From Streptomyces sp. MUM 203J (GTDB taxonomy: Bacteria; Actinomycetota; Actinomycetes; Streptomycetales; Streptomycetaceae), in the NCBI RefSeq assembly GCF_022414595.1, contig NZ_JADWYO010000007.1, positions 1 to 64,000 of the forward strand: a stretch of 64,000 nucleotides of DNA, written 5' to 3'. Each line of letters opens with the position of its first letter. The stretch's first letter is position 1. A program made the position numbers and the translations under genes. Below the pieces are notes generated by a model, which did not search any database, was not told the origin of the DNA, and saw only the letters and a program-made list of their open reading frames with translations. Below, piece after piece: positions 18,464-40,999 of the stretch.

Positions 18464-18538
18464 GGTGCTGGTGGTTCTCCTTCGCCAGGACCGTAACCCT
18501 GGCATCAGGGACTCCACAAATCTCAGTACAGCTCACTG

Positions 18539-18920: not shown

Positions 18921-18966
18921 GCCGAGACGAGAGCCGGGGCCTTGACCTGACGGTCTCGGCCCCGGC
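18921..18966. terminator. Terminator at the left border of the NRPS cluster
   Basis: GCCGAGAC pairs with GTCTCGGC, and the alternative GCCGGGGCC pairs with GGCCCCGGC. It lies about 40 bases beyond the carbamoyltransferase stop, so it ends the leftward biosynthetic operon. Confidence 0.65.
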
Positions 18967-19004
18967 CTCAACTCCCCCACTGGGCAACGGAGTACCTGTC
19001 ACTG

Positions 19005-20807
19005 TCAAAGCAGGGTGTAGACGCTGTCACTCACCCGGCTCCGGCGCGGTGGCCGGGTGCCCTTGAACCACGTCACCCAGGACCGCGGGAGGGCTTCGCG
19101 GTCCAGGACGAAGTCGTCGAGCACCAGGCAGTCGATATCTGACCTCAGGAAGCAGAGCAGGGCGTCGACGGGGGTGTGGACGATCGGCTCTCCCCGGAGG
19201 TTGAACGACGTGTTCAGGAGCAGCGGGCAGCCCGTCCGGTCGGCGAACGTCCGGATGAGGCGGTAGAAGCGCCCGTTCGTTCCCTCGGTGACGGTCTGCA
19301 CACGGGCTGACTTGTCCACGTGGGTGATGGCCGGCAGCGACAGCGGCGACACGACCTCGCAGGTCTCCAGCATGAACGGCGACTCGTGGTCGAGCCGGAA
19401 GTGCTCGTGCGCGTGCTCGGCCAGCACAGCGGGCGCGAACGGCCGGAACGCCTCGCGCATCTTGACCGAGGCGTTGATCCGGTCCCGTGTGTCGTCGCCC
19501 CGTGGGTCGGCCAGGATGGACCGTCCGCCGAGCGAGCGGGGCCCGAACTCCTCCCGGCCGTGGTACCAGCCGATCACCTTGCCCTCGGCCAGTCGCCCCG
19601 CGACGGCATCGAGCAGACCCGCCTCGTCCCCGCGGAAGTCCGCGAAGGACTGGCCGGCGTACGCACCGAGCAGCCGGGCGATACCGTCGGAGTGCGTGCC
19701 GGAGCCGAGGAGCACCGAGGTCAGCCGGTCCTGTCGGGGCCGCTCCCCGGTCAGGCGCTGGTGGGCCACCGCCGCGCACCCGAGGCTGCCGCCCGCGTCA
19801 CCGGCGGCCGGCTGCACGAACACCCTGGCGAAGGGGCCCTCCTCGACGATGCGGCGCACGGCGACGACATTGAGGGCCACGCCTCCGGCCATGCACAGGC
19901 TCTCGCTGCCCGACATGCGGTGGGCCTTGTCGACCATGCGCAGCAGGGTCTCCTCGGTCACGACCTGGATGCTGCGCGCGAGGTCGTGGTGGACCTTCTC
20001 GATCGCCGACTCCGGCACCCGCGGTGCCAGGCCGATCAGGGACGTGAAGCGCTCACCGAGCATGCCGTCCGGGTTGGTGAAGTCGAAGTAGTCCAGGTCG
20101 AGCCGGAACGACCCGTCCTCGGTGACATGGATCAGCCGGCCGATCTCGTCCCGGAACCGCGGTTCGCCGTAGGGGGCGAGCCCCATCACCTTGTACTCGC
20201 CCTCGTTCACCTCGAAACCGAGGTAGCCGGTGACCGCGCTGTAGAGCAGGCCCAGGGAGTGGGGGAACTCGACCTGCTCGGTCAGTTCGAGCGACGCGCC
20301 CCGCCCGACCCCCCAGCTGGTGGTGGCCCATTCGCCGACCGCGTCGACCGTCAGCACGGCGCTGTCGTCGAAGCCGGAGAAGTAGTAGGCGCTCGCGGCG
20401 TGGGAGAGGTGGTGGTCGACGAACTCGACCCGGCCCTCCCAGCCGAGCAGGTCCCGTATCTCCCTCAGCGGCCGGTCGGCGTCCAGGCGGTAGAGGGCGC
20501 TCGCGCTGCGGTCCGGGAAGGCCGGCAGCCCAGTCCACAGCTGGCGGTGGAGCTTCTTCGCCGGGTCCTCGTAATAGGCCACGCAGTCCACGTCGGTGAT
20601 GCGCAGACCGGCTTGGTCCAGGCAGTCGCGCACGGCGTCGAGCGGCAGGTCGGGATCCTGCTTGCGCCGGGTGTAGCGCTCCTCGTGGGAGGCGGCCACG
20701 AGCCGGCCGTCGATCAGCAGCGCCGCCGCCGAGTCGTGGAAGTGGGCCGAGATCCCGAGGACCACGGGTCCGGCGGGTGCCGGAGTATGCGTGTTCTGCA
20801 CGGTCAT
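19005..20807 (-). CDS. O-carbamoyltransferase (NodU/CmcH family)
   Basis: A 600-residue protein; the family uses carbamoyl phosphate and ATP to carbamoylate hydroxyl groups of natural products. The N-terminal domain opens VLGISAHFHDSAAAL and contains EERYTRRKQD and the metal-binding FVDHHLSHAASAYYFSGF (about 128-142). The C-terminal TsaC-like domain shows EEFGPRSLGGRSILADPR and LLNTSFNLRGEPIV. ATG 20807 overlaps the stop of the oxygenase gene by four bases, so the two are coupled. The longer open frame upstream is antisense noise. The oxygenase-carbamoyltransferase order suggests that a newly made hydroxyl, or the serine hydroxyl, is the acceptor; this is inference. Confidence 0.93.
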   Translation of the reverse strand: MTVQNTHTPAPAGPVVLGISAHFHDSAAALLIDGRLVAASHEERYTRRKQDPDLPLDAVRDCLDQAGLRITDVDCVAYYEDPAKKLHRQLWTGLPAFPDRSASALYRLDADRPLREIRDLLGWEGRVEFVDHHLSHAASAYYFSGFDDSAVLTVDAVGEWATTSWGVGRGASLELTEQVEFPHSLGLLYSAVTGYLGFEVNEGEYKVMGLAPYGEPRFRDEIGRLIHVTEDGSFRLDLDYFDFTNPDGMLGERFTSLIGLAPRVPESAIEKVHHDLARSIQVVTEETLLRMVDKAHRMSGSESLCMAGGVALNVVAVRRIVEEGPFARVFVQPAAGDAGGSLGCAAVAHQRLTGERPRQDRLTSVLLGSGTHSDGIARLLGAYAGQSFADFRGDEAGLLDAVAGRLAEGKVIGWYHGREEFGPRSLGGRSILADPRGDDTRDRINASVKMREAFRPFAPAVLAEHAHEHFRLDHESPFMLETCEVVSPLSLPAITHVDKSARVQTVTEGTNGRFYRLIRTFADRTGCPLLLNTSFNLRGEPIVHTPVDALLCFLRSDIDCLVLDDFVLDREALPRSWVTWFKGTRPPRRSRVSDSVYTLL

Positions 20808-21610
20808 CGCGGGTCTCCCTGTCCGGCAGTGTGCGGCTCCGCCATCGCGACCGCGATCTTCCGGTCGCCGGCGAAGGGCTCCCGGCCGTGGCTGGACAGC
20901 ATGTTGTCCACCACGAGGATGTCGTTCTGCTGCCAGTCGAAGCGGACCCGGCAGTCCGCGTAGCGGCTGCGCAGGTGGTCCATCACGTCGTCGGGGATGC
21001 GTCCGCCGTCGCCGTAGTACGCGTTCGTGGGGAGGCCGTCCTCGCCGGTCCCCTCGGGGATCAGCCCGTGCTCCTTGCAGCAGGCCTCCGCCTCGGCCCG
21101 GCTGTCGGTCCCGAACAGCTTGGCCCACGGGACGCCGAAGTCCGGGTGGTAGTTGCGCACCAGACTCCAGCGCCGGCGCGCGAACTCCTCCCGTACGCCA
21201 GGGTCGATCGCCGCGTACAGCCGCCGGGTGTCGGCCAGCGGTGTCGATCCCGGCGTCTGCGGCGCCCGCAGGCAGGAGAAGTGCAGCGTCATCGGCCAGG
21301 CGTCCGGGTAGGAGCACTCGTTGTGGAGGAAGATCTCCTCCTCGGCCGGGTGGTCGGTGGACGTGTACGCACTGCCCTGGACCGAGGTGCGCGGGGAGGA
21401 CGCCTCGGTGCAGGTGAGCGTCTCCCCGGACAGCGCGTTGACGGTCGACTGCGATCCGTCGACACCGTCGATGTCGAAGCCGCGGAAGAGGAGCGCTCCA
21501 TGGGTGCCGAGCGTCGAGCGGAGCTCGTCACGATCGTGCTCGATGGGGTCTACGAGGTCGGTGGTGGAACCTGCTTCCACCACCAGCGGCAGCACTGCCG
21601 GCGCGGGCAT
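20804..21610 (-). CDS. Fe(II)/2-oxoglutarate oxygenase, SyrP/TauD-like, shortened
   Basis: A 268-residue TauD-family enzyme. ATG 21610 is preferred over the ATG 15 bases upstream because AGGAG lies five bases before it. The iron triad is intact: His96 and Glu98 in FLHNECSY, and His241 in MLSSHGREPF; the Arg in GDRKIAVAMAEP should bind 2-oxoglutarate. The sequence pattern (SVQGSAYTSTDHPAEEEIFLHNE) is that of SyrP-like enzymes that hydroxylate carrier-bound aspartate and of the dapdiamide epoxidase DdaC. Compared with my memory of that family it lacks about 45 residues between TDSRAEAEACCKEHG and YYGDG. It probably oxidises an aminoacyl-carrier intermediate. Confidence 0.87.
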   Translation of the reverse strand: MPAPAVLPLVVEAGSTTDLVDPIEHDRDELRSTLGTHGALLFRGFDIDGVDGSQSTVNALSGETLTCTEASSPRTSVQGSAYTSTDHPAEEEIFLHNECSYPDAWPMTLHFSCLRAPQTPGSTPLADTRRLYAAIDPGVREEFARRRWSLVRNYHPDFGVPWAKLFGTDSRAEAEACCKEHGLIPEGTGEDGLPTNAYYGDGGRIPDDVMDHLRSRYADCRVRFDWQQNDILVVDNMLSSHGREPFAGDRKIAVAMAEPHTAGQGDPR

Positions 21611-21689
21611 ACGGTCTCCTGACATAACGGTGTTGCGGGCGGGCAGAGAGGTCAGACGGGCCGGTGCGGGACGTCCGGGGCGGGCGCCG

Positions 21690-23051
21690 TCACCCCGGCG
21701 GGCCCCAGGGCCTGTCCGAGAACCGATCCTCCGGACGGGCCCCGGCCGTCTGGTCCAGGAAGGGCGCGTCCGACGGCGACAGCGGCTGCAGGTCCGTCAC
21801 CCAGGTCGCCCGCGGGTCGAACCGTGCGAAGAACGGCCGCCCGACCACCTCCGGGTCCCTGGCCTGCAGATAGCGCAGTGCGAGCGCGGACTGTCCCGCG
21901 ATCTGCGTCACTCCGTCGACGACCACTTTGCCGCGGGTGGCGGACATCGACGGGCCGCGGACCGTGCGCGCGAGTCCGGTCACGGACGACAGAGCCTCCC
22001 GGTAGATCAGCCAGGCACGGACGAGCGGAACCTCGAAGTACTGGCGCGGACCGGTGTCCCGCTCCACGAACATGTAGTAGGGCACGGCATCGAGGGCGAC
22101 GGCGCGCGTCCACATCTCCCGCCAGATGTCGGCGTCGTCGTTGATCGACCTGACCAGGGGCGCCTGGGTGCGGATCACGGCGCCCGTCGACCGGACTCGT
22201 TCGACGGCGCGCCGCACGGGCTCCGGGTGAAGCTCGCGAGGATGCGTCACATGAGCCATCACCGCGAGGTGCCGACCGCTTTCGCGAACCTCCTCGAACA
22301 GGCGCAGGAGGTCGTCGGCGTCCTCGTCGGCGGTGAACCGGTACGGCCAGTAGGTCAGGGCCTTGGTGCCGATCCGGATGTTCCTGATGTGCTCCATCCC
22401 CGGGGCGAGGAAGGGCTCCAGCGCGCGCCGCAGGCTGTCGGTGCGCATGATCAGCGGGTCGCCTCCGGTCACCAGGATGTCGGTGATCTCGGTGTGGTGC
22501 CGCAGGTAGGCGGCGAGCGCGTCGGCGTCGTCCTTCTCCACGGCCATCTTCAGCTCGGGCACCCCGACGAACTGTGCCCAGCGGAAGCAGTAGGTGCAGT
22601 ACGCGTGGCAGGTCTGGCCCTGACGCGGGAAACAGAGCAGCGTCTCCTGGTACTTGTGCTGCACGCCCGAGAGCCGCTGCCCCTGCCAGACGGGGACGTT
22701 CTGGTCCGTCTGGCCCGCCGGGTGCGCGTTCAGCCCCGCGCGGATCTCCCGCACGGCGGGCGCGAGACGGGCGGGGCCCGCCTCCTCGCGCAGCAGGTCC
22801 GTCACGGTCTTCAGCTCGTCCGCGGCCAGCATGTCGGGCTGCGGAAAGACCAGCCGGAAGACGGGGTCGTCGTGCACGTCGTCCCAGTCGATGAGCTCGT
22901 CGACCACATACTGGTTGGTCCGGAACGGCAGGACCGCGGCCACGGCCCGTATCTGGAGCTTCGTCTCGGAGTCCGCCCCGCACCGGTCCAGCAGCGCGTC
23001 CAGATCGCGTGCCGAGTACGCCCGGAAGCGGGGCGCCGTCACGGCGCTCAT
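21690..23051 (-). CDS. KamA-like radical SAM aminomutase, divergent subfamily
   Basis: A 453-residue radical SAM protein. The cluster motif is C148-x3-C152-x2-C155 in TCHAYCTYCFRWAQF; VTGGDPL is the GGE-like SAM segment; SATRGKVVVDG holds a Lys where lysine 2,3-aminomutase has its PLP lysine. The region after the cluster differs from classical lysine 2,3-aminomutase and EpmB, which carry CxxCxRR, so the substrate may differ. Known relatives move an alpha-amino group to the beta position. Its start overlaps the NRPS stop by four bases, tying it to the cluster: it may supply a beta-amino acid monomer (beta-Glu, beta-Lys or other). Exact chemistry is open. Confidence 0.82.
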   Translation of the reverse strand: MSAVTAPRFRAYSARDLDALLDRCGADSETKLQIRAVAAVLPFRTNQYVVDELIDWDDVHDDPVFRLVFPQPDMLAADELKTVTDLLREEAGPARLAPAVREIRAGLNAHPAGQTDQNVPVWQGQRLSGVQHKYQETLLCFPRQGQTCHAYCTYCFRWAQFVGVPELKMAVEKDDADALAAYLRHHTEITDILVTGGDPLIMRTDSLRRALEPFLAPGMEHIRNIRIGTKALTYWPYRFTADEDADDLLRLFEEVRESGRHLAVMAHVTHPRELHPEPVRRAVERVRSTGAVIRTQAPLVRSINDDADIWREMWTRAVALDAVPYYMFVERDTGPRQYFEVPLVRAWLIYREALSSVTGLARTVRGPSMSATRGKVVVDGVTQIAGQSALALRYLQARDPEVVGRPFFARFDPRATWVTDLQPLSPSDAPFLDQTAGARPEDRFSDRPWGPPG

Positions 23052-26000
23052 CCGCGCCCCTCGTTCTGGCCAGCGGTGCCCGGCGCGACCGCGCGGGCGA
23101 TCTCCCTGGCCGTGACCGCGGCATGGGACCGCTGCACCAGGGTGAAGTGGTCGGCGCCGGGCACGGTCCGGGTCTCAACCGGCGTACCCAGTGCCTCCTC
23201 CCAGCCGAGGGCCGGGGATGTCCCCTCCGGCCGCGTCTGGTCACCGGCGAGCACCAGCGTGAGCCGGGTGTCCCTGAGGCGGGCCCGCCGCATCCGGTAG
23301 TCCACGAGCGCGGTGGCGTTGGTGTCGAACACTGTGAACCTGCGGCGCAGTGACTCCTGCTCCTCGCCGGCCGTCGGCCGGTCACCGCTGAGCAGCGCGG
23401 TGTCGATCCCCTCGCCGGTCATGCGCTCCAGATCGCGAGCGAAGGACTCCACCCGGTCGGCGTCGGGGCCTGCGAAGTGCTCGAATGCCCTCGAGCCCGG
23501 CGCGTAGCTGTCCAGCAGCACCAGGGAGGCGGTGCGCACCCCCTCGAAGGAGAGCTGGCGTGCCATCTCGTAGGCGACGGCGCCTCCCATTGACCAGCCG
23601 GCGAAGTGGTACGGCCCCTCAGGCTGCACCTTGAGCACCTCGTGGAGGTAGGCGGCCGCCATCTCCTGGACCGAGGTGAACACGGTGCCGCCGTCAAGGC
23701 CGGGAGAGCGGACCCCGATCACCGTGAACTCGGCGGGCAGCGCCGACGCCACCTCCCGGAAGCACAGCACGTCGCCGCCGATCGGGTGCACGAGGAACAA
23801 CCGTGCTCCCTTCGGTGAACCCTGCCGTAAAGTCAGCAACAGCTCGCTCGCCTGGTCGTCGGACTCCTCCCGCAACTGGCGTACCGACGCGGCCAGACGG
23901 TCGACGCGCGGCCCCTCCAGGAGCTTGCGCAGCGAAAGCGACAGGCCGGTCTTCTTCCGGATCCGGGTGAGCAGGATGGTGGCGAGCAGTGAGTGCCCGC
24001 CGACCGCGAAGAAGTCATCGGTGACGCCGAAGTCCTCGTGACCGAGGAGCTCGGCCCACATGGACGTGATCAGGGTCTCGGTGTCGTCCCGGGGCGCGAC
24101 ACGCTCCTGCAGGGCCGGGAACGAGGTGCCCCGGAGCGAGGACCGGTCAAGCTTGCCGTTGGGCAGCAGGGCGAACCGGTCGACGAAGAGGAACAATGAG
24201 GGGACGACGGCCAGCGGCAGCCGCTCGCGCGCGTGGCGGCGAAGTTCCTCCGTGGTCAGGGCGGAGCCGGCGGAGCGCACGACGTAGGCGACGAGCGAGC
24301 CGTCCGCCTCCTTGTCCGCCTCCACGTGGACCTGGCGCACCTGCGGATGGGTGGTCAGCTCGGCCGCAACCTCCGCGGGGTGCACCCGGACGCCGCGCAC
24401 CTTGAGCAGGTCGTCGCTGCGCCCCTCGACGTGGATCTCGCCGAAGGCGCCGACCACGGCGAGGTCTCCCGTGTGATAGACGAGGTCGTCCGGGTCTTCC
24501 GACAGCGGGTTGGGACGGAAGTTCGAGGCTGCGCGGGCGTCGTCGAGGTAGCCCAGGGTCCGGTACGGCGTCCGGATGACGATCTCGCCGCGTTCGCCGG
24601 GACCGCGGACGGAGCCGTCCGCGCCCAGGACGACCGCCTGGGCGGCGGGCAGCGGCCGGCCGACGGGCACCGGTCCCGCGTCCTGCTCGGCCGTCACCCG
24701 GTGGAACGTCTTGATCATGGTCGTCTCGGTGGGCCCGTAGAAGTTGACGACTTCCGTGTCCGGGCCCAGCAGCCGCTCACGCAGCTCCTGGACGAGACGG
24801 CCGGTGAGGGGCTCGCCCGCGAGGCAGAGCAGCCGCAGGTCGGTGAGAGGCGTGTTGGCCCGGTCGGTGTCCCGCATCCAGGAAGCCACCACGCTGGGTG
24901 TCGTGTGGACGATGGTGACGCGCTCGCGCGCCAGCCAGTCCACCATCCGCGCCGTGTCGTCCAGGGCGCTCGTCGGCGGCAGGCACAGAGTGGCCCCCTG
25001 GGTGAGCGGCACGAAGACGTCGCGCAGGACTGCGTCGAAGGAGAGCGTGGTCAGCTGTGCCACGCGGTCCCCGGCGTGCACGCCGAACTCCGCCGCCTCC
25101 CAGTCGATGAAGTGGTCGAGGCCGCGGTGCGACCCGACGACCGCCTTGGCCTCGCCGGTCGTGCCGGAAGTGAAGAAGACGTAAGCCGGTTCCATGGGCC
25201 GGGCGGGGACGGGGCCGAGCGCCTCGCCCTCGCTCTTGGCAAGTTCCTCGAAGGAGAGGCGTCGCACGGTGGTGTCGCCCGGCACCTCGGTCGCGGTCGA
25301 CGGCTCGGTGAGCAGAATCTGCCGGATGCCGGCCCTGGCCACCATGGCGGCGCGCCGTGGTTCGGGAAGACCGTCGTCCAGGAGTACGGCGGTGGCGCCG
25401 ACGCCGACCGCGGCGACGAGGGCGGCCACGGTGGCGGGCGACTTGCCGCCCAGCACACCGACGCGCTGCCCCGCCTGAAGCTCCTGCGCGGCGGCCGCCA
25501 CCGCGGCGGCCAGCTGCCGATAGGTCACCTCGCCTTCCGCCCAGGAGACCGCGACGGCGTCCGGGGTGGCGGCGGCCCGGCGCCTGAACCGCTCGGCGAC
25601 GGGGACGAGGTCCCGCGTGGGAAGCGGCTCGGCGAACGGGTGGTCGGCGCGGTGTTCAAAGGCCAGCGGACGCGTCGGCTGCTCGGCGGCGAAGCGGAGC
25701 AGGCGCGTGAACCGCTCGCCGAGCGCGGCCGCGAACTCGGCCTGGACCGTGTCGGCGTCGTACTCGAAGTCCAGGACGGTGCCGGCCTCTCCGGGGCGCA
25801 CCACCACGGTGAGGTCGAACTTGGCCGTCGGCGCCGTGCCGGAGCCGTCACCGGCTTCGGCGACCACGTCGACGGGACGCAGGAGGGCGGCCTCGGGCGG
25901 CAGTTCCCCGCGCGGTGGCATCCGCAGCATCACGGAGAACAGCGGGCTGCGGTCCCCGTCCCGGGCGGCGGCGACGGCCTCAACGACCTGCGCGTAGGAG

Positions 26001-28849: not shown

Positions 28850-28895
28850 CTCAGTGTGAGTCCAATCGTGTGGTCAGGATTGCCCTGAGGGCCGG

Positions 28896-31800: not shown

Positions 31801-31973
31801 CGATCGGGCCCTACGCCCGCCGCCACGAGTGTCTCGGCCAATGCGGCCGAGCGGGCATCGAGTTCGCGGTACGTCAGGGCCTGCCGGTCGTCAGAGACCG
31901 CACGCGCGTCGGGTGTCCGGCGGAACTGCTCGACCAGCGCCGCACCCAACGACTCCGGAACGGTACGACACAC
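28896..31973 (-). CDS. NRPS, A-T-C, serine-activating loading module
   Basis: A 1025-residue protein from GTG 31973 (GAGGGGG eight bases upstream; the open frame beyond it is noncoding). A domain about 10-510 with YTSGSTGRPKG, FDVSVWEF, NLYGPTEAAVD, RTGDLA; its pocket reads DVWHMSLVDK, a standard serine code. T domain FLHAGGTSL (Ser about 540). The C domain begins LNRYQERLWFLQEL; its active-site motif is HQIIADG (about 722), with Gln in place of the catalytic second His. The absence of an N-terminal C domain marks it as the chain starter, so the line is Ser-A2-A3. Two TTA codons occur (codons 623 and 711). It is transcribed first in the leftward operon. Confidence 0.92.
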   Translation of the reverse strand: MCRTVPESLGAALVEQFRRTPDARAVSDDRQALTYRELDARSAALAETLVAAGVGPDRIVALQLERSVDLAVAIVGVVRAGGAWLPLSTTDPDRRILGMLRDAAPAAVVTEESSRLWSLAGSGVPRLTPRSHRTPGQAPPIDSAAPHHLAYVIYTSGSTGRPKGVMTEHAAIVNRLRWMQDRFGIGPGDVVAQKTPYTFDVSVWEFIWPLMTGAELAFATPDGHRDPGYLAQFLTERQVTVTHFVPSMLTEFLRQVRPGDCPRLRSVMVSGEALGPDLARRFFERLPHTELHNLYGPTEAAVDVTHWQCAENASPTAPVPIGHPITGIELLVVGEDGAQVPAGEAGELCIAGVGVARGYLNLPEVTAERFVPHPADPTRRMYRTGDLASRRPDGAYLYHGRNDRQVKIGGVRIELGEVEAALQSLPYVEECVVVTRVDGAGVARLNAVAVLVPGVPWSGWRDDLLGILPAGSIPAGLAPVDSLPKTAHGKADVAALHAIIEERSDRSTQAADGADPLERLWAGVLGSTEPHFLHAGGTSLHAVRLLADVAEEFGGTVALADFFAEPTLDRLRALLSAAGTDTTKMPSRVPRSDELPLNRYQERLWFLQELEPESTAMSAPTALRITGVSAERVSEAFAGLVRRHEVLRTTFRSVDGEPRAVVGAQLPALEWTDGTGLSADPAAVRRLVAQTAYEPFDLAAGPPLRAHGVTLGPNDHLLVMVTHQIIADGWTWSLLTDELIRLLTEPDRGPEDARLQIVDHAAWQRTHETLREHRAAVQESLRHWRTVLANAPDGLDLPVDEPRGPSLSVPADSVALRWSPDFPARLKRLCREHGITEFMALLAGYTVWLARLSGQETVVVGTPMANRTPPWVADLAGHFVTTVPQRLEIDEDATVAQVLDRARTSVVAGQRHSVVPIERIVAEVGAARGTDRLPLFQNLFVFQNMPAWQRQADGVTVRVHQFPPRHTHYDLKFEVFPLTEGYEARLVYARGRISSERAALMARQLASFVEAAVDKPDAYVDEIAL

Positions 31974-32217
31974 CGTGTTGTCCCCCTCATAAGTACCCTG
32001 TCGGCGGGCCGACCAAGATCGCCCCGGCCATACACGACACGGAACCATGGCACGTCAGAGGCCGTTTAGGTAGATCTATATTTGGTCAATGAATCTTTCC
32101 TTGTGTTGATCAACTGGTGATGTAATCTGCCTCAGTCCCGCCCGGGCGGCAGCCTGCCGCACCAGGGCGGATGTTGACGTAGAGCCGTACCAATCAACTC
32201 TGGGAAGGGTGTTGACG
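31974..32217. promoter_or_regulatory. Divergent promoter region of the NRPS cluster
   Basis: This 244-base space separates the two operons. Its middle (32062-32120) is unusually A/T-rich for this genome and includes the palindrome GTTGATCAAC (32105-32114). On the minus strand TTGACC near 32085 is a possible -35 element, but no convincing -10 at standard spacing was found. It is the only likely place for a regulator to control both operons. No regulator gene lies in the cluster. Confidence 0.55.
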
Positions 32218-34089
32218 GTGTGTGGACTCGCGGGCTTCGTCGGGCCACGACATGATCTCCGGGCGGCGCGCGAGACGCTCGACGCCATGAGCGCGGTCAT
32301 CGGACACCGAGGACCGGACTCCACCGGATTCCATGTCGACGAGACCGTGGCGTTCGCGTTCACACGGCTGGCGATCAACGACCTCGGAGCCGGCGACCAG
32401 CCGATGTACGACGAGAGCCGGCAGATCGTCGCCATGACCACCGGCGAGATCTACAACTACCGCGAACTGCGTGACCTCCTCGTCGACCGGGGTCACACCC
32501 TGCGCACGCGCTGCGACACCGAGGTGATCCCGCACCTCTACGAGGAGTTCGGCCGCGACTTCGTCAGTCGGCTCGACGGGCAGTTCGCGGTCGTGCTCTA
32601 CGACCACCGTGAGCAGCTCTTCATCGGCGCCCGCGACCACTTCGGCGTCACGCCGCTGTTCTACGCACACCAGGGCGGCGAGTTGGTCTTCGGCTCCGAG
32701 ATCAAGGCCGTGCTGGAGCACCCCGCGGTGCCGCGCCGCGTCGACCTCGTCGGCCTGGACCAGGTGTTCACCCTGCCCGGTCTGGTGAGCCCGCGGACGA
32801 TGTTCGAGGGCGTCCACAGCGTGCCGCCCGGCACCGCTGTCGAGTTCCGCCCCGGTGACCGGCCCAAGGCCTGGACGTACTGGGACCTCGCATACCCGCG
32901 CACCGACGCCGACTTCGAACGCCACGACGAGTCGTACTACGTCCGCCGGGTCGAGGACCTGCTGGTCCGTTCGGTCGAGAAGCGTCTGCAGTCCGACGTG
33001 GAGGTCGGCCTCTACCTGAGCGGCGGCCTGGACTCCTCCCTGGTCGGCGCGATCATGCGGCATCTGATGCCGGAGGCCGAGATCCAGTCGTTTGCGGCGG
33101 CCTTCCCCGAGCGGGAGCTCTCCGAGAGTGACTACCAGCGGTGGATGAGCGGTGTCCTCGACACCCGCCACACCGAGCGCTTCGTGCACGGCGAGGAGAT
33201 AACCTCCCGGCTGCGCACAGTCGTACGGCACACCGAGTGCCCGCTGAAGGAGTCGTTCAACTCGGCCGCCCACGCGCTGTCCGAAGCCGTGCACCGCGCC
33301 GGGGTCAAGGTGGTGCTCACCGGACAGGGCGCGGACGAGCTGTTCGGCGGCTACATCGGCTACCGCTTCGACCAGGTCCGGCGCGCACAGGCCGCGGGCG
33401 GCGTCACCGACCTGCGGGAGGCCAGGATTCGCGAAGGCCTCTGGGGGGACGAGAACTTCTTCTACGAACGCAACGACGCCGGATTCAGGGCCACGAAGGC
33501 CCGGCTCTACTCGGCGCCGGTGCGCGAGCGGCAGGACGAGATCGACTGCCTCGGTCACCCTTTGGTCGACCGCGAGCGCCTGACCGGCCTGCACGATCTG
33601 CACCGCCGTTCCTACCTCGACCTCAAACTCCGGCTGGCGGACCATCTGCTCGGCGACCACGGCGACCGCATGGTGTTCGCCAACTCGGTGGAGTCCCGCC
33701 ATCCGTTCCTCGACCGGGAGCTCGTCGAGTTCCTCGCGACCGTGCCGCCCGAGCTGAAGCTGAAGGGTCTTGAGGAGAAGTACCTCCTCAAGCAGGTCGC
33801 CCGGGACTGGATTCCGCGCCGGATCGTGGACCGCGAGAAGTTCGGCTTCACCGCGCCGGGCAGCCCGCACCTGATCCGGCAGGACGACCCCGCCATCGAG
33901 GCCCTGCTGTCCCGCGAACGCATCGAGGCGGACGGCTACTTCGATCCGGACCACGTGGAGCGGCTCGTCCGCGAGTACGGCACGCCCGGGTTCCGCATCA
34001 ACGTTCCCTTCGAGACCGACCTGTTGATGACCGTACTCACCTTCAACCTCCTCCTCGACCTTTACGACCTGCCCGCATACTCCGCCTGA
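32218..34089 (+). CDS. asnB: Glutamine-hydrolysing asparagine synthetase-type amidotransferase
   Basis: A 623-residue protein. GTG 32218 is the right start because it places Cys directly after the initiator (CGLAGFVG), giving the N-terminal nucleophile of class II glutaminases; GAAGGG lies eight bases upstream, and starting nine bases earlier would bury this Cys. The synthetase half has YLSGGLDSSLVG (about 266-277) for ATP-pyrophosphate chemistry, then TGQGADELFGGY and VESRHPFLDRELVEF. It is the first gene of the rightward operon. In this setting it probably converts a carboxylate of a free or peptide-bound Asp/Glu-like residue to an amide rather than serving general asparagine supply. Beta-lactam synthetase is less likely because the glutaminase Cys is kept. 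Confidence 0.9.
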   Translation: MCGLAGFVGPRHDLRAARETLDAMSAVIGHRGPDSTGFHVDETVAFAFTRLAINDLGAGDQPMYDESRQIVAMTTGEIYNYRELRDLLVDRGHTLRTRCDTEVIPHLYEEFGRDFVSRLDGQFAVVLYDHREQLFIGARDHFGVTPLFYAHQGGELVFGSEIKAVLEHPAVPRRVDLVGLDQVFTLPGLVSPRTMFEGVHSVPPGTAVEFRPGDRPKAWTYWDLAYPRTDADFERHDESYYVRRVEDLLVRSVEKRLQSDVEVGLYLSGGLDSSLVGAIMRHLMPEAEIQSFAAAFPERELSESDYQRWMSGVLDTRHTERFVHGEEITSRLRTVVRHTECPLKESFNSAAHALSEAVHRAGVKVVLTGQGADELFGGYIGYRFDQVRRAQAAGGVTDLREARIREGLWGDENFFYERNDAGFRATKARLYSAPVRERQDEIDCLGHPLVDRERLTGLHDLHRRSYLDLKLRLADHLLGDHGDRMVFANSVESRHPFLDRELVEFLATVPPELKLKGLEEKYLLKQVARDWIPRRIVDREKFGFTAPGSPHLIRQDDPAIEALLSRERIEADGYFDPDHVERLVREYGTPGFRINVPFETDLLMTVLTFNLLLDLYDLPAYSA

Positions 34090-34150
34090 CGGCGATTCAG
34101 GCGCGCGTCGGGCAGCCCTGCCCGGACCCACATTGCCAAGGGGACAACGG

Positions 34151-36166
34151 ATGCCGCCGACCGATCCGACTCACAGCATCACCGAGCGACTCAGCCACGC
34201 CCTGTCCGGACCGGAGGGGACCCTCGCCCTGGCCCGGATGCAGGTGCTGGGCCGACCCGTCGAGCGCTCGACGGAGCTGGCCGCGCCCCAACTGTCGCAA
34301 ACCGAAGTGGGCGTGTGGCGCCTGGCGGACGGACAGTTACGCCGGGACACCGAGCGCCGGGACGAATGGCGCTACTGGGCCGACCGGCCGGAGATACCCC
34401 TGCGCCCCGGACACCGCCTTGTCGCCGTGCTCGGGGAGTCCGCGACCCGCGGCTACTTCTTCGACCCGGCGTACTCGCTGGCCGGGCTCGTCGACGCCGC
34501 CCTCGACGGCACCGGCGTGGACGTCCTCGACCTCGCCCGCACCAACTGCTCCCTGGCGGAACTCCTCAAGACGGCCGCCGAAGCCCTCGCCCTCGGGGCC
34601 GACGCACTCGTGGTACACGCCGGGAACAACTGGAACAACATCGACCCGACGCCCGTGGAACGCCACGAACTGGCCCTGCTGCTCGAAGAGGGCGGCTTCC
34701 CGGCGGCCGCGGCGTCCTTCCGGGATCTCGTCACCGAGGTCGCCGCGAGCGCGCTGGACCTGCTGCGCGAACTGGCGGGGAAGGTCCCCGTCGTCCTGGT
34801 CGTCCCGGAGTTCAACCTGGGCGACTGGACGGACGAGCCGATCCTCGACTGCCCCGCCCTGCCCGCCGGACGGATGCGGCGCTGGCTGAGTGCCCGGGAC
34901 GAGGCCGAGCGGGCTCTGCGGGACGGCGACCTCGCCGGCGCCCGCACGGTCGTCGCCGAAATGGCCGGGCTCGACGGCGGCTCCAGTCCTGTCTCCCACC
35001 GCCTGGCGGCACGCTGCGCGGCCTCGCCCGACGAGGCACTCACCGCGCTCCGGGCGGCCAAGGACGCGGTGGTCAGCCCCTTCGCCGTCCACTCCCCGCG
35101 TACCCTGACCTCCGTGCAGGAGGTGATGCGCCACAAGGCCGAGGAGGCCGGGTTCCACCTGGTCGACCAGGCGGCCCTGTTCCGGGAGGGCGACGCCGGC
35201 GCACCCGGCCGCCGGTACTTCCTCGACTACTGCCATCTCACCTTCGACGGCCTGCGCGCCACGGCCCTGGCCGTGGCGGAGGCCCTCGGCAGCGCCCTGG
35301 AGCTGCCCGAGCGGCCGGGCGCCGGCGGCGTTCCGGTCCGGGCCGCGGCCGACCGGCTCGCCCTGGCCCATTTCCTCGCCGCCGTGCACAACGCCCACTA
35401 CGGCCAGCCCGAGGACGTGCTGCGCCACCACCTGACCCGAGCGCTCGATGCCGACGCCTCGGTCGCCGGCCGCTTCGAGGACTACCTCGACTACCAGACG
35501 AGGACCGCCCCGAACTGGATGTGCTCCTCCTACGAGCGCTCCACCCAGGACCCGGCGTTCCGGCGCTACATGGTGGTCGGCGACGGCCGGCTCAACGGCA
35601 AGCTGGCGGACCACGGCCTGCGCGAGGTCATGCTCGACGCACTCGAAAGCAGGGGCGTCCCGGCGCGCCGGCGCTACGAGAACCTGCTTGTCGCCGAACA
35701 CGTCGGCAACACCGACCTGCTGGCCGACGCGAACCTCGCGACCACGTTCAACGAGCGTCGTCAAGCCGGCGTCGGCCCGCGGGTGGCATACCTGCGGGCG
35801 AGCTCCCCCTGCACCCGGTCCACCCTGGTCGTCGACGAACCGGCCCCGCTCGTCATCGAAGCGACCTGGCGGCTGCCGGCCGAAGTACCGGCCGCGTCGG
35901 TGTCGGTCGCCGTGAACGGACACGTGGTGGGCACAGCCGAGGCGGGCACGACGTGGACGACCCGGAGGTTCACCGTGGCCCCGGACATCCTGCGCCGCGG
36001 ACGCAACACCGCCGAGATCCGCTGGCCGGAGGGAGGCGACGGCACCGACACGCTCGTCGCCGGGGCCCCGGCCCGCCTGGAGTGCGGCGAGAACGTGCCG
36101 AGTCACCCGGTCCACGGCCACGTCCACGGCTGGTCCGCGACCCGGGCCGTGCCCGCCGCGGTCTGA
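34151..36166 (+). CDS. Large SGNH/GDSL-like domain protein of the NRPS cluster
   Basis: A 671-residue protein from ATG 34151, with AAGGGG seven bases upstream; a TTG 18 bases earlier is poorer. The SGNH-like domain (about 80-390) has AVLGESATRGYF, in which GES replaces GDS, HAGNNWNN as the Asn block, and DYCHLTFDG as the Asp-His block. The C-terminal part (about 400-671) begins LAHFLAAVHNAHYG and ends in a beta-rich stretch (VEATWRLPAEVP ... SVAVNGHVVGTAE). No signal peptide is seen. Codon 63 is TTA. It may be an acyl or carbamoyl hydrolase, an acyltransferase, or a peptide-bond-forming enzyme. I do not recognise a characterised homologue, and function is not assigned. Confidence 0.75.
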   Translation: MPPTDPTHSITERLSHALSGPEGTLALARMQVLGRPVERSTELAAPQLSQTEVGVWRLADGQLRRDTERRDEWRYWADRPEIPLRPGHRLVAVLGESATRGYFFDPAYSLAGLVDAALDGTGVDVLDLARTNCSLAELLKTAAEALALGADALVVHAGNNWNNIDPTPVERHELALLLEEGGFPAAAASFRDLVTEVAASALDLLRELAGKVPVVLVVPEFNLGDWTDEPILDCPALPAGRMRRWLSARDEAERALRDGDLAGARTVVAEMAGLDGGSSPVSHRLAARCAASPDEALTALRAAKDAVVSPFAVHSPRTLTSVQEVMRHKAEEAGFHLVDQAALFREGDAGAPGRRYFLDYCHLTFDGLRATALAVAEALGSALELPERPGAGGVPVRAAADRLALAHFLAAVHNAHYGQPEDVLRHHLTRALDADASVAGRFEDYLDYQTRTAPNWMCSSYERSTQDPAFRRYMVVGDGRLNGKLADHGLREVMLDALESRGVPARRRYENLLVAEHVGNTDLLADANLATTFNERRQAGVGPRVAYLRASSPCTRSTLVVDEPAPLVIEATWRLPAEVPAASVSVAVNGHVVGTAEAGTTWTTRRFTVAPDILRRGRNTAEIRWPEGGDGTDTLVAGAPARLECGENVPSHPVHGHVHGWSATRAVPAAV

Positions 36167-36205
36167 CCGCCCCCGCCTCTGCGTTCCGACAGACAGGAGA
36201 GTCCC

Positions 36206-37291
36206 TTGCGCTTCAGCGTCATGTTCTTCGCCTCCGGTGAGGCGGCCCCGCGGGAGACCTGCCGGACGGTGCTGGAGACCAGCCGTCTGGCCGACGTACA
36301 CGGCCTGGACGCGGTGTGGACTCCCGAACGGCACTTCGACCAGTTCGGCAGTGTGTTCCCCAACCCCGCGCTCACCAGCGCCGCGCTGGCCACCGCGACC
36401 GAACACATCCAGCTGCGGGCCGGCAGCCTCATCTCTCCGCTGCACCACACGGTGCGCATCGCCGAGGACTGGTCCGTCGTCGACAACTGGTCGTCCGGCC
36501 GTGCGGCAGTCTCCTTCGGCTCCGGCTGGAACGCCAACGACTTCGTGCTGGCCCCCGAGGCCTACGAGTCGCGGCACCAGGTGATGCTGGAGCAGATCGA
36601 CACGGTGCGCGCCCTGTGGCGAGGCGAGGACGTCGAGCTTCCCAACGGCACCGGGCAGCCCTTCGCGGCACGCCTGCACCCCAGGCCCGTCCAGCCGGAA
36701 CTGCCGATCTGGATCACCTCGTCGGGGAACCCGCGGACCTTCCAGGACGCCGGGGTCCGCGGCCTCAACGTGCTGACCCACCTGATCGGCCAGAACCTGG
36801 ACCAGCTCGCCGAGAAAGTGGCCCTCTACCGCAAGGCCCGCGCGGACGCCGGCTTCGATCCGGCCACCGGGACGGTCTCCCTGATGCTGCACACCCACCT
36901 GGACGACGACCCGGAGGCCGCCGAGGCCCGCAGCCGCGCACCGTTCCGCGACTATCTGCGCTCCGCGGTGAAGCTGGAGCTCCGGGCCGCTCAGGGCGGC
37001 GGCACCATCAGCGGCGGGCATGTCCTGCCCGACGACGAGATACCCGAGGACCTCCTCGACGAGTTGCTGGACGCGACCTACGAGCGTTATCTGCAGGGCG
37101 GCTCCCTGATCGGCTCCCCGGACACCTGCCGGGGCATGGCCGACCGGGTGGCGGCGGCGGGTGTCGACGACATCGCATGTCTGCTGGACTTCGGCGTGCC
37201 CAGCGAGCGGATCCCCGCGGTGATCCCGCTGATCGCCGCCCTCGCCGGCGAGAGCGGCTCCGGACGTGAGGTCGTCGAGAGTGCGCACTGA
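36206..37291 (+). CDS. Luciferase-like flavin-dependent monooxygenase (natural-product type)
   Basis: A 361-residue LLM enzyme, full length. The opening MRFSVMFFASGEA, then GLDAVWTPERHFDQFG, ISPLHHTVRIAEDWSVVDN and SFGSGWNANDFVLAPE are the signature of the subfamily often found fused inside NRPS/PKS proteins (MupA/Atu3640 type). Here it stands alone. Family members use reduced flavin to hydroxylate chain intermediates. It follows the SGNH gene by about 40 bases and overlaps the MFS gene, so it belongs to the rightward operon. It is a second oxidative step besides the Fe/2OG enzyme; its substrate is not predictable from sequence. Confidence 0.9.
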   Translation: MRFSVMFFASGEAAPRETCRTVLETSRLADVHGLDAVWTPERHFDQFGSVFPNPALTSAALATATEHIQLRAGSLISPLHHTVRIAEDWSVVDNWSSGRAAVSFGSGWNANDFVLAPEAYESRHQVMLEQIDTVRALWRGEDVELPNGTGQPFAARLHPRPVQPELPIWITSSGNPRTFQDAGVRGLNVLTHLIGQNLDQLAEKVALYRKARADAGFDPATGTVSLMLHTHLDDDPEAAEARSRAPFRDYLRSAVKLELRAAQGGGTISGGHVLPDDEIPEDLLDELLDATYERYLQGGSLIGSPDTCRGMADRVAAAGVDDIACLLDFGVPSERIPAVIPLIAALAGESGSGREVVESAH

Positions 37292-38540
37292 CCTCGCCCT
37301 GTGGGCACGTCTGCGCGATGTGCTGATGCTGCAACGGCGTGAGACCAGACTGCTCCTGGCGAGTGTGACCGCCGACTCCTTCGGCACCGGCATCTTCACG
37401 GCGACTTCGGTCCTGTTCTTCACCACCGTCCGGGGCTTCAGTGTGTCCGCCGTCGGCCTGGCGATCTCCCTGGGAAGCCTCTGCGCGTTCTTCCTCGGCC
37501 CCCGCATCGGCGCCCTCGCGGACCGGGTCGGGCCGCAGAAGAGCCTCATCGTGCTGTTCGGCGTACGCGCCGTGGGCTACGGCCTGTACCTGCTCGCCGA
37601 GCAGTACTGGCTGTTCGTGGTGCTCGCCTGCGTCGTGACCACGGCCGACCGGGCCAGCCCTGCCATCAACCAGGCCCTGATGGGCCGGCTGTTCGAGGCC
37701 AGGGACCGGGCGACGATCCTGGGCACCGTGTTCTCGGCGCGCAACGGGGCGATCGTGCTCGGGTCGCTGGCCGCCACCCTGCCCGTCGTCACCGGCTCCA
37801 GCGCCCTGTACCTGGTGGGGATCGGGGTCAACGCCGCGTCCTTCATCGTCGCCGCGCTCCTCGTGGCCCGGCTGCACGTCCCGAAGGCGGAGCCCGCGGC
37901 CACCGGCCGGGACAAGGAACGCCGCGGCGGACTTTCCCCCTTGCGCGACCGGCGGTACCTGGCCATCACGGTCGTCAACGGCGTGGCCCAGACGCACAAC
38001 ACGATCCTGTCGCTGGTGCTGCCCCTGTGGATCGTCCACGCCACCAGCTCTCCCAAGTGGAGCCTCACCGCGCTGCTCGCGCTCAACGGCGCGCTGGCCA
38101 TGGCGGCTCAGGTACCGGTGAACCGGATGTTCGCCGACTTCTCCGCCGCTCTGCGCGCGTCCGCGCTCGGCGGTGTCGCCATCTGTGCCGCGTGTCTCGC
38201 CTATGCCGGGGCCGGGGCGGTGGGCGACGCCTGGGTGGCGCTCGCGGTCCTCGTGGTCGCCATGCTCGCCCACACAGCCGGGGAGAGCCTCTTCATCGCG
38301 AGTACACCGCTGTCCTTCGAACTCGCCCCGAAGGAGTCGCTCGGACGGTACCTGTCCTTCTACAACCTGGGCCGGGTGGGCCAGGACCTCGTCGGGCCGC
38401 TGCTGATCGTGGGGCCGCTCGTGGACCGGGGCGCCCCCGTGTGGGTGCTGGTCGGCGCGGTCGTGCTGCTAGGCGGCCTCGTGCCGTGGACCCTCCTCAG
38501 GGACGACGCGCTCGCCGTGAACGGGCGGTCGGCACGGTGA
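37266..38540 (+). CDS. MFS exporter of the NRPS cluster
   Basis: A 424-residue membrane protein with about 12 hydrophobic segments and the MFS loop GALADRVGPQKS after the second helix. Two GTG starts are possible: 37266, or 37281, which has GAGG nine bases upstream; both overlap the monooxygenase end. The stop overlaps the racemase start (GTGA). It most likely exports the product and confers self-protection, the only candidate resistance gene in the cluster. Confidence 0.9.
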   Translation: MRSSRVRTDLALWARLRDVLMLQRRETRLLLASVTADSFGTGIFTATSVLFFTTVRGFSVSAVGLAISLGSLCAFFLGPRIGALADRVGPQKSLIVLFGVRAVGYGLYLLAEQYWLFVVLACVVTTADRASPAINQALMGRLFEARDRATILGTVFSARNGAIVLGSLAATLPVVTGSSALYLVGIGVNAASFIVAALLVARLHVPKAEPAATGRDKERRGGLSPLRDRRYLAITVVNGVAQTHNTILSLVLPLWIVHATSSPKWSLTALLALNGALAMAAQVPVNRMFADFSAALRASALGGVAICAACLAYAGAGAVGDAWVALAVLVVAMLAHTAGESLFIASTPLSFELAPKESLGRYLSFYNLGRVGQDLVGPLLIVGPLVDRGAPVWVLVGAVVLLGGLVPWTLLRDDALAVNGRSAR

Positions 38541-39310
38541 GCGCGGTCACCTCCGGGTACCGGACCGCGACGCAGGCACCCGATCCGGCGGCGTCCGGCA
38601 TCGTCGGTGTGCTCGGCGGCATGGGGCCGGCCGCCACGGCGGACTTCTTCGCGAAGCTGGTACGGGAGACGCCCGCCGCCAGTGACCAGGAGCATCTGCG
38701 GACGCTGGTGTGGTCCGACGCCACTGTGCCGGACCGCACCGACGCCATCCTGTGCGCCGGGCCCAGCCCGCTCCCCCGCCTGCTCGAAGGGGTGCGCCTG
38801 CTCCAGTCCGCGGGGGCCGCAATCATCGCCATGCCCTGCAGCACCGCGCATGCCTTCCTCCCGGAGCTGCGGCGGGCCTCGGCGGTCCCCGTCCTCAGCA
38901 TGATTGACGCCAGTGTGCGGCGGCTGCGCGCGGCCGCGCCGTCGGTCTCCCGGGTGGGGCTCCTCGCCACCACCGGCACGCTGGTGACGGGCCTGTACCA
39001 GGAGAGTCTGCGCGAGCAGGGCATGGACGCGGTGGTCCCCCCGCCGCTGCTTCAGCAACGGTCCGTGATGCGGGCCGTGCGGCTGATCAAGGCCGGCGAG
39101 CTGGAGGCCGCCGAGCAGGCACTGGCCCCGGCGGTCAGAACCGTCGCCGGGGCCGGAGCGGGCATGATCGTCGCAGCATGCACGGAACTCCCCCTGGTGC
39201 TCGGTCACCGGGCCGAGAACCTCCCCGTCTTCGACCCCACCACGGCACTGGCGCAGGACGCCGTGGCGCTCGCCAGGCGTCTTCCGCGCCCCGACCACAC
39301 GAAGGAATGA
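38537..39310 (+). CDS. Aspartate/glutamate-type amino acid racemase
   Basis: A 257-residue PLP-independent racemase from GTG 38537, overlapping the MFS stop by four bases. IVGVLGGMGPAATADFFAKLV is the family opening; the two catalytic cysteines are Cys101 in MPCSTAHAF and Cys215 in VAACTELPLVL. Most aspartate racemases have NT rather than ST after the first Cys, so specificity may be shifted. The NRPS proteins contain no epimerisation domain, so this enzyme could supply a free D-amino acid monomer. A general racemase role is possible, but its position inside the operon argues for the pathway. Confidence 0.88.
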   Translation: MSAVTSGYRTATQAPDPAASGIVGVLGGMGPAATADFFAKLVRETPAASDQEHLRTLVWSDATVPDRTDAILCAGPSPLPRLLEGVRLLQSAGAAIIAMPCSTAHAFLPELRRASAVPVLSMIDASVRRLRAAAPSVSRVGLLATTGTLVTGLYQESLREQGMDAVVPPPLLQQRSVMRAVRLIKAGELEAAEQALAPAVRTVAGAGAGMIVAACTELPLVLGHRAENLPVFDPTTALAQDAVALARRLPRPDHTKE

Positions 39311-39312
39311 CC

Positions 39313-40605
39313 ATGAACACGCGTGTCTGTCTCGTCTCGCCCAAACCCCCGATACTCCAGCGGGCCAGGCGGCTGAAGCTGGACGTGGTCTGCGTGTACA
39401 CCCCCGAGGAGTTCCGCAAGCTCCCCGCCGACGCCGTGCACGACGAGATCTGCCTGGTGCTGCGGCACCAGTCCGACCCCCGGGAGCTGGTGGACTCCGT
39501 CCGTGCGCTGCACGACCGTACGCCGTTCTCGGCCGTGGTGACCGTTCAGGAGGAGGGCGTCATCACCACCGCCCTGCTCAACGACGCCCTCGGCCTGAAC
39601 GGTGTCTCTGCCGAGACCGTGGCACTGCTGACCGACAAGTGGCACATGCGCCGGCACACCGCGGAGCTCGGCGTCAGCACCGTGCGGGCGGCCGTCGCGT
39701 CGAGTCTGGAGGACATCAGGGAGTTCGGTGCGGCCCAGGGATACCCGTTGATCGCCAAGCCGCTGGGCGGCTCCGCGAGCATCGGCATCCACAAGATCGA
39801 CAGCCCCGGGGCGGCCGAGTCCGCGTACGCCACGCTGAGTGGGCTCGGCCTGAAGCAGTTCCTGCTGGAGGAGTACCTCGAAGGCCCGGAGATCAGCGTG
39901 GACGCTCTCTCCTTCGACGGCCGTCACGTGCCGATCGCCATCGCGGACAAGATCACCGGAACTGGCTTCGTCGAGTTCGGGCACGCCATTCCCGCCCAGC
40001 TGGCCCCCTCCCTGGAGGAGGAGGTGTGCCGCACGGTGTCCGACTTCCTGGACGCGGTCGGCCTCCGCAGCGGTCTGTCGCACACCGAGCTGAAGCTCAC
40101 ATCGGCCGGGCCCCGGGTGGTCGAGAGCCACAACCGGCGCGGGGGCGACCGGATCAACACCATGACGCACGCCGTCTACGGCATCGACCTGGAGGAGGCC
40201 GGCCTCGCCTGGGCCACGGGTCTGCTCCAGCCGCTCGCCGAGCGTCCCGCGGCAAACGGCGGAGCGGCCGTCGTCTTCTTCGAGGCCGAGCCCGGCCGCC
40301 TGGTCGCCATCGAGGGCGCCGATGAGGCGCGCGCCCACGCCGGTGTCGTCGAGTTTCACCTCAATTTCGAGGTGGGCCAGCTCATCCCACGGGTCCGCTG
40401 GTCGCTGGACCGGGCCGGGTATGTGGTGGTGACGGCCGAGACGGCCCAGGCCGCACAGGAGCTGGCCCAGTCGCTGGCCTCCCAGGTGCGGTTCGTGACC
40501 GAGCCCGACCCGGCGGCCGAGGAGGACGGTGCGCAGGGGCTTCGCCGCCATCGCGACCTCGTGGCAGAACTCAATCAGGTCCCCCACGTCGATGCCCTGA
40601 CGTAA
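39313..40605 (+). CDS. ATP-grasp carboxylate-amine ligase
   Basis: A 430-residue ATP-grasp enzyme of the type that joins amino acids or peptides (BacD/DdaF-like in layout). GYPLIAKPLGGSASIGIHKI is the first grasp loop, LEEYLEGPEISVDALS the second, and HTELKLTSAGPRVVESHNRRGGDRI the metal-binding Glu/Asn region. The second ATG (39313) is chosen because GAAGGA lies six bases ahead; the first (39307) abuts that site. It closes the rightward operon and is followed by a terminator. It could add a residue to an NRPS product or make a building block. Substrates are unknown. Confidence 0.88.
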   Translation: MNTRVCLVSPKPPILQRARRLKLDVVCVYTPEEFRKLPADAVHDEICLVLRHQSDPRELVDSVRALHDRTPFSAVVTVQEEGVITTALLNDALGLNGVSAETVALLTDKWHMRRHTAELGVSTVRAAVASSLEDIREFGAAQGYPLIAKPLGGSASIGIHKIDSPGAAESAYATLSGLGLKQFLLEEYLEGPEISVDALSFDGRHVPIAIADKITGTGFVEFGHAIPAQLAPSLEEEVCRTVSDFLDAVGLRSGLSHTELKLTSAGPRVVESHNRRGGDRINTMTHAVYGIDLEEAGLAWATGLLQPLAERPAANGGAAVVFFEAEPGRLVAIEGADEARAHAGVVEFHLNFEVGQLIPRVRWSLDRAGYVVVTAETAQAAQELAQSLASQVRFVTEPDPAAEEDGAQGLRRHRDLVAELNQVPHVDALT

Positions 40606-40618
40606 CGACACGACGTAC

Positions 40619-40665
40619 GAACTGGGCAGGGCAACACCCTTCTGAGGGGTCGCTCTGCCCAGTTC
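40619..40665 (+). terminator. Terminator at the right border of the NRPS cluster
   Basis: GAACTGGGCAG and CTGCCCAGTTC form a perfect 11-base stem 13 bases after the ATP-grasp stop, around a loop that has its own short stem (ACCC/GGGT). It defines the right end of the operon. Confidence 0.75.
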
Positions 40666-40765
40666 TCCGGTGGCGATGCTCCGCTTGCGTCCCGCGTTCT
40701 TCTTGCCGGCGTCGATGCCATGGCTGGAGGCGGGAACAAACGTCGGCACGGTGAGCGGCCCTGCG

Positions 40766-40999
40766 CGCCAGTTCGCCGCCACTGAGGCCAGGCACGCGAC
40801 GACGGCGCTCGGCGCGCTGCCCGGGGTGCTCCGGGTGAACCGGCCCCAGGTGAACGCGGACTGCACCAAGCCCGTCCGGCTCGCCGCCGCCGCATGCGGC
40901 CTGCACGTCCCTGACACGCTGATCACGAACGACCCGGCCGACGCCGCCCCGTCCGCCGAGCGGTGCGGCAGCCGGATCGTCACCAAGGTGCTGTCGGGT
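40766..40999 (+). pseudogene. Relic of a graspetide-type ATP-grasp maturase (TgmB/SAV_5884-like)
   Basis: RQFAATEARHATTALGAL, then NRPQVNADCTKPVRLAAA, then GLHVPDTLITNDP and IVTKVLSG follow in order the conserved region just before and at the ATP-grasp domain of SAV_5884-type maturases. The N-terminal domain is missing and after 41000 the frame no longer matches the family. No precursor peptide or partner methyltransferase gene is seen nearby. It is a dead fragment unrelated in family detail to the intact ATP-grasp gene upstream. The stretch 41000-41306 holds nothing else I can support. Confidence 0.55.

Follow-up and report, generated by a model that had tools for sequence, protein, structure and literature searches.

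Results

Organisation and boundaries of the cluster

We analysed a 64-kb window on contig 7 of the 6.45-Mb Streptomyces sp. MUM 203J genome, to which all coordinates refer, and describe here a nonribosomal peptide synthetase (NRPS) gene cluster at 19005–40605 (Table 1). Its eleven genes form two divergent operons. The five genes on the minus strand encode a carbamoyltransferase (CarbT), a TauD/SyrP-like oxygenase, a KamA-like radical S-adenosylmethionine (SAM) enzyme and the synthetases NRPS2 and NRPS1. The six on the plus strand encode an asparagine-synthase-type amidotransferase (AsnS), an SGNH-type protein, a flavin mononucleotide (FMN)-dependent luciferase-like monooxygenase (LLM), a major facilitator superfamily (MFS) exporter, a racemase and an ATP-grasp ligase. 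This layout had been proposed in a sequence-only reading, and we recovered all eleven genes with agreeing strands and approximate ends. The gene families named there were also all found again by domain search, with Pfam and NCBIfam scores far above chance; the exception is the SGNH protein, which has no match in either collection and was recognised by its motifs and modelled fold. That the locus is an NRPS cluster is borne out by adenylation (A), thiolation (T) and condensation (C) domains and a releasing thioesterase (TE) with intact core motifs, except for the HQxxxDG motif of C1 discussed below. A sigma-70 promoter scan gave no match in 31800–41200.

In blastn comparisons with five further Streptomyces genomes (S. 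naganishii JCM 4654 (G148), Streptomyces sp. XY006, G013, G110 and G314), DNA identity begins at 18944–19004 and ends at 40660–40667. All five carry the complete eleven-gene set in the same order, with proteins that are mostly 90–97% identical, and beyond the block the flanks are unrelated among all six genomes, apart from one 154-bp match. Because homology stops at the cluster edges and the flanks differ in six genomes, the block is a discrete, apparently transferable cassette that moved as a unit. Terminators at 18.9 and 40.6 kb had been suggested to delimit the cluster. Strong hairpins do lie at both ends, and the right-hand one folds strongly in six of six copies despite differing sequences, but a T-run terminator scan flagged neither. 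The boundaries themselves were correct to ~ 60 bp; the abrupt end of homology in the five genomes is the stronger evidence for them. The window contains no tRNA usable as an attachment site. Directly outside the left edge, two minus-strand frames at 17271–18517 read as an IS3-type transposase pair; they lie in sequence that is no longer homologous to the other five genomes.

Table 1. Genes and other features of the cluster, with window coordinates and the evidence for each.
Feature	Position	Strand	Evidence or remark
Hairpin 3′ of the carbamoyltransferase gene, probable terminator, left edge	18929–18969	-	RNA fold -40.1 kcal/mol, z -3.81
CarbT, NodU/TobZ-type carbamoyltransferase	19005–20807	-	600 aa; PF02543 225 bits, PF16861 223 bits
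TauD/SyrP-like oxygenase	20804–21625	-	273 aa, shortened, probably inactive in this strain; PF02668 123 bits
Deletion junction	21036–21047	.	One copy of the 12-bp repeat CCGTCCTCGCCG; blastn break 21047/21027 against five genomes
KamA-like radical SAM enzyme, predicted glutamate 2,3-aminomutase	21690–23051	-	453 aa; TIGR00238 124 bits, under cut-off
NRPS2, A2-T2-C2-A3-T3-TE	23048–28849	-	1933 aa; Pfam domains
NRPS1, A1(Ser)-T1-C1	28896–31973	-	1025 aa, GTG start; Pfam domains
Intergenic region separating the divergent operons, presumed promoters	31974–32217	.	Gene layout
AsnS, asparagine-synthase-type glutamine amidotransferase	32218–34089	+	TIGR01536 463 bits, cut-off 267
SGNH-type protein	34151–36166	+	671 aa; catalytic blocks and modelled fold
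LLM, MupA/Atu3671 family	36206–37291	+	TIGR04020 442 bits, cut-off 244
MFS exporter	37266–38540	+	PF07690 85.5 bits
Asp/cysteate-type racemase	about 38537–39310 (start approximate)	+	PF01177 146 bits; NF052483 251 bits, cut-off 190
ATP-grasp amino acid ligase	39313–40605	+	PF18603 78.5 bits, PF13535 54 bits
Hairpin, probable terminator, right edge	40619–40665	+	RNA fold -36.6 kcal/mol, z -4.27

Variant clusters and the NRPS assembly line

S. achromogenes, S. anandii and other Streptomycetaceae carry more distant versions of the cluster, which share a core of CarbT, SGNH, AsnS, NRPS1, NRPS2, KamA, MFS and ATP-grasp genes. Type A′ clusters (S. achromogenes NRRL B-2120 and one CBMA123 cluster) are without LLM and TauD genes, and a search of the S. 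achromogenes genome returned no LLM at E ≤ 1e-60. Type B clusters (S. anandii and Streptomyces sp. NBC_01431) have neither TauD nor the Asp-type racemase; their additional genes are for a BTAD regulator, an FMN reductase, another ATP-grasp-like protein and a pyridoxal phosphate (PLP) enzyme that belongs to the PALP family and is of the serine-dehydratase/racemase type. No cluster of type A, A′ or B is without the KamA gene, which adjoins NRPS2 or lies one short gene away from it, and this genome holds no second copy.

The A1 code DVWHMSLVD is a serine code, as had been read from the sequence, and a serine code was found in all variants read. The codes of A2 (DAKQCSLIL) and A3 (DARHCAFMI) are largely conserved across the variants, and the two domains are each other's closest relatives (40–41% identity, against 33–35% to A1). 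Both carry Lys or Arg at the third code position, equivalent to Trp239 of PheA, and such a residue would suit an acidic side chain. The catalytic motifs of NRPS2 are intact. C1 has HQxxxDG in all eight type A and A′ clusters (HQIIADG in the window) and HHxxxDG in type B; judged from this distribution, loss of the second His is therefore a fixed, lineage-specific change.

An acidic residue on A2 and A3 could be an α-amino acid. Both domains would then load ordinary Asp, Glu or racemase-made D-Asp, the KamA-like enzyme would act late or on another substrate, and the product would be an acidic, perhaps metal-binding peptide of the Ser/Asp type. The racemase, which is Asp/cysteate-like and resembles aspartate racemase 1jfl (171 bits), would fit such a product, but type B clusters do without it. 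Asp235, which binds the α-amino group, is retained in A1–A3. Similar Arg codes (DVRHFALMA and DVRHLALLA) are found in NRPS genes with no KamA gene in the stretch examined; the A2/A3 code, weakened in this way as a diagnostic for β-glutamate, is therefore no proof of it. The codes of A2 and A3 are, however, unlike the usual Asp and Glu codes, and the constant place of KamA at or near NRPS2, together with its single genomic copy, also speaks against this reading. On balance we regard loading of α-amino acids as unlikely.

A possible relative was seen on a plasmid of Streptomyces sp. NBC_01483 (L109:10453–17914), where an unannotated NRPS combines a serine module with a DVRHFALMA module. A TauD protein at this locus is 40% identical to the intact oxygenase, and neither KamA nor CarbT lies within ~ 15 kb. 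The locus is perhaps a distant cousin of the cluster.

Glutamate or lysine as substrate of the KamA-like enzyme

We compared the KamA-like protein with Streptomyces KamA proteins that have both lysine-binding Asp residues, and the PLP-binding Lys aligned without a gap. CxxxCxxC and the PLP Lys are retained, whereas every member compared has Arg in place of D293 and either Ser or Val in place of D330 (Ser in the window). D293 and D330, in the numbering of the literature, are the residues that recognise lysine, and they are replaced in glutamate 2,3-aminomutase. This comparison was made with database sequences only. Family models place the protein in neither described group: it scored 96 bits against TIGR03820 (lysine 2,3-aminomutase, cut-off 525) and 75.6 bits against TIGR04368 (glutamate 2,3-aminomutase of the clostridial kind, curated score 650).

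The kinship of the enzyme may point to macrolactam starter units. The type B KamA falls in a clade with KamA proteins that have an AMP ligase and a PLP enzyme of the aminotransferase type encoded beside them, and in one macrolactam-type set (L044, 75% identity to the type B protein) also a polyketide synthase (PKS). The window protein is nearer to urease-linked homologs (61–63%) and to L034 (59%), which has PLP-enzyme and AMP-ligase neighbours. Two enzymes of such sets have been assigned as glutamate 2,3-aminomutases, PlmK of pretilactam (PMC6631532) and IdnL4 in the 3-aminobutyrate set of incednine, the latter confirmed by gene disruption (PMC11284099). Kinship with both was judged through homologs in gene sets of the L044 type. 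Loss of both lysine-recognition Asp residues, together with kinship to the macrolactam enzymes, thus makes β-glutamate the likelier precursor, and the KamA-like protein is better read as a glutamate than as a lysine 2,3-aminomutase. The family had been named correctly as KamA-like radical SAM.

Were the enzyme nevertheless a lysine 2,3-aminomutase, the product would be a β-lysine peptide of the streptothricin/capreomycin kind. In favour, public records label the homologs lysine 2,3-aminomutase, the protein has a weak match to TIGR03820, and streptothricin clusters likewise contain a carbamoyltransferase and NRPS genes. Against it, the TIGR03820 score is far under the cut-off, and homologs of this KamA sit in 3-aminobutyrate starter sets. 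The Lys/Arg at the third code position of A2 and A3, not an acidic residue, also speaks against a β-lysine substrate. With one of the two altered Asp positions occupied by Arg throughout, we consider this alternative improbable, and use of β-lysine as in streptothricin or viomycin was rejected on the lysine-site residues.

KamA-family genes were also seen in other settings. In seven Streptomyces genomes (L027–L033), a member 61–63% identical to that of the window lies beside urease genes, outside NRPS and PKS clusters, with UreC proteins 91–100% identical among themselves; a 2,3-aminomutase may here have a part in nitrogen metabolism that has gone unrecognised. Megaplasmids of the fungal endosymbiont Mycetohabitans rhizoxinica encode a KamA that stands alone and belongs to the same motif family (L042:14977–16356, 53% identical to that of the window); no biosynthetic partner is annotated within 15 kb, in a stretch that is in large part unannotated.

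The carbamoyltransferase/SGNH pair and other tailoring enzymes

CarbT has both the N- and the C-terminal carbamoyltransferase domains of the NodU/TobZ type. In the SGNH protein, the GES, GNN and DxxH blocks are invariant in 13 homologs. Its model, with a mean predicted local distance difference test (pLDDT) score of only 65, aligned to 1yzf with a Z of 18.1 (VIA-align; root-mean-square deviation 3.0 Å over 185 residues), and Foldseek returned no match for it at E ≤ 0.001. Judged by the motifs and the VIA-align Z of the modelled fold, the protein is a member of the SGNH superfamily.

The SGNH family gave convincing scores in 12 of 395 Streptomycetaceae genomes, at 13 loci, and in a phylum-wide sample it appeared only within the genus. 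These 13 loci from the family sample are the basis of our pairing survey. Each of them has a CarbT match of the same type (partial at G143, with 176 residues), including four loci (G359, G310, G528 and G143) that share little or nothing else with the cluster; CarbT and SGNH are therefore taken as a conserved functional pair. Its settings differ. At L082:15053–19667 the pair is accompanied by a B12-binding radical SAM enzyme, a glycosyltransferase and a methyltransferase, with no NRPS match. In G143 the SGNH gene lies among housekeeping-like genes beside the 176-residue carbamoyltransferase match (L084:17930–20495, with L085), and the pair there may be degrading or split.

The catalytic Cys2 of AsnS is conserved in 11 of 11 clusters compared, and the protein has the features of a glutamine-dependent amidotransferase. 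With Cys2 kept, AsnS should use glutamine to amidate a carboxylate, and a role as β-lactam synthetase was rejected on the same residue. The solved protein nearest to LLM is PuwE (6ket, 319 bits). The ATP-grasp protein resembles the L-amino acid ligase 3vot.

Decay of the oxygenase in this strain

The oxygenase had been called SyrP-like, and its family is correct (PF02668), but the gene is shortened in this strain. Compared with five intact copies, the gene has an in-frame 147-bp deletion between 12-bp direct repeats: the relatives have two copies of CCGTCCTCGCCG 147 bp apart, where the window has one. The deletion removes 49 residues, including a WFN segment that aligns within the 1y0z fold, from a protein of ~ 320 aa in the intact relatives, so that this strain is without the complete jelly-roll domain of its relatives. 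The gene has also collected 19 nonsynonymous and 4 synonymous changes unique to the strain; the corresponding counts for the ten remaining genes are 126 and 202 (Fisher p 3.9e-5). Taken together, the 49-codon deletion and the excess of amino-acid changes make it probable that the enzyme is inactive in this strain. An assembly error could account for the deletion by itself, but hardly for the excess.

That the whole cluster is decaying and makes nothing in this strain, as the damaged oxygenase gene and the transposase-like frames just beyond the left edge might suggest, is very unlikely, since the other ten genes are open with changes within the range of intact relatives, catalytic motifs are intact, and relatives without any TauD exist.

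Discussion

The NRPS pathway described here is real, conserved, mobile and of a recognisable kind. Orphan NRPS clusters are common, and the sequence-only reading knew of no described cluster with this gene set; our literature searches, which covered openly readable papers (MIBiG, antiSMASH and subscription papers being outside their scope), likewise turned up none, and the pathway is undescribed as far as searched.

We propose, and judge about as likely as not, that the cluster is a self-contained cassette, moved by horizontal transfer, whose genes direct the synthesis of a short, polar, carbamoylated peptide from L-serine and β-glutamate-type residues. The KamA-like enzyme would convert L-glutamate to β-glutamate. 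A1 would load Ser, and A2 and A3 two acidic β-amino acids, β-glutamate or its amide, with AsnS amidating a free carboxylate. LLM may hydroxylate the α carbon of a carrier-bound aminoacyl thioester, as MupA does on an acyl carrier protein (ACP). A hydroxyl group, that of Ser or the new α-hydroxyl, would then be capped by CarbT, with the SGNH protein as its presumed partner in acyl transfer or hydrolysis. The racemase and the ATP-grasp ligase could supply and attach a D-amino acid, probably Asp-like. The TE would free the chain and the MFS protein export the product. With the oxygenase broken, the product of this strain would be a deoxy congener with one hydroxyl fewer.

Besides the Arg codes found away from KamA, several observations weigh against this proposal. 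Identity of the window KamA to the macrolactam enzyme L044 is no more than 53%, against 61–63% to the urease-linked homologs, and activity of IdnL4 was not observed in vitro (PMC11284099). With the second His of HHxxxDG lost, it is not certain that C1 forms a plain Ser-X bond. MupA acts on an ACP-bound β-keto thioester, which it α-hydroxylates, and needs an FMN reductase (PMC10952193), whereas the window cluster has no ketosynthase; for this reason a carrier-bound β-aminoacyl thioester is our guess for the LLM substrate. Finally, the S. achromogenes type does without both LLM and TauD.

If the proposal is true, the glutamate 2,3-aminomutase type of macrolactam starter units is linked to nonribosomal peptides, and β-glutamate becomes a specific, testable precursor. 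The points that we consider new are the glutamate reading of KamA, the CarbT/SGNH gene pair, which is defined here and recurs in several cluster types, the fixed HQxxxDG C domain and the loss of the oxygenase in this strain. With six natural copies at as many sites, one of them with a decayed gene, and with variants that have no oxygenase or no LLM, the structure could be assigned by strain comparison. A bolder and rather doubtful extension is that the clusters form an NRPS family that uses β-glutamate made by a radical SAM enzyme, MupA-type α-hydroxylation on the carrier, carbamoylation by a dedicated CarbT/SGNH pair (a new two-enzyme tailoring unit that would also serve unrelated clusters) and an HQxxxDG C domain with a changed mechanism.

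Among known systems, the streptothricin, capreomycin and viomycin clusters of actinobacteria likewise bring together an enzyme of the KamA superfamily, carbamoylation and NRPS genes. The window cluster differs from them in the lysine-site residues of its KamA, in its modular A-T-C and A-T-C-A-T-TE synthetases with a serine module, and in that none of its eleven genes is for streptolidine or capreomycidine. MupA and PuwE belong to the same TIGR04020 family as LLM, and an FMN reductase is found in the type B clusters. The clusters of S. achromogenes, S. anandii and NBC_01431 resemble that of the window in their core genes and differ in LLM, TauD and racemase content. The 3-aminobutyrate starter-unit sets of macrolactam clusters, of which those of incednine (IdnL4) and pretilactam (PlmK) are examples, have a KamA of the same family, with identical PLP-Lys, ERDTG and RTVRGP motifs. 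In the macrolactam sets, β-glutamate is decarboxylated to 3-aminobutyrate, which primes a PKS, whereas the window cluster has no PLP decarboxylase and no PKS, and two NRPS genes in their place.

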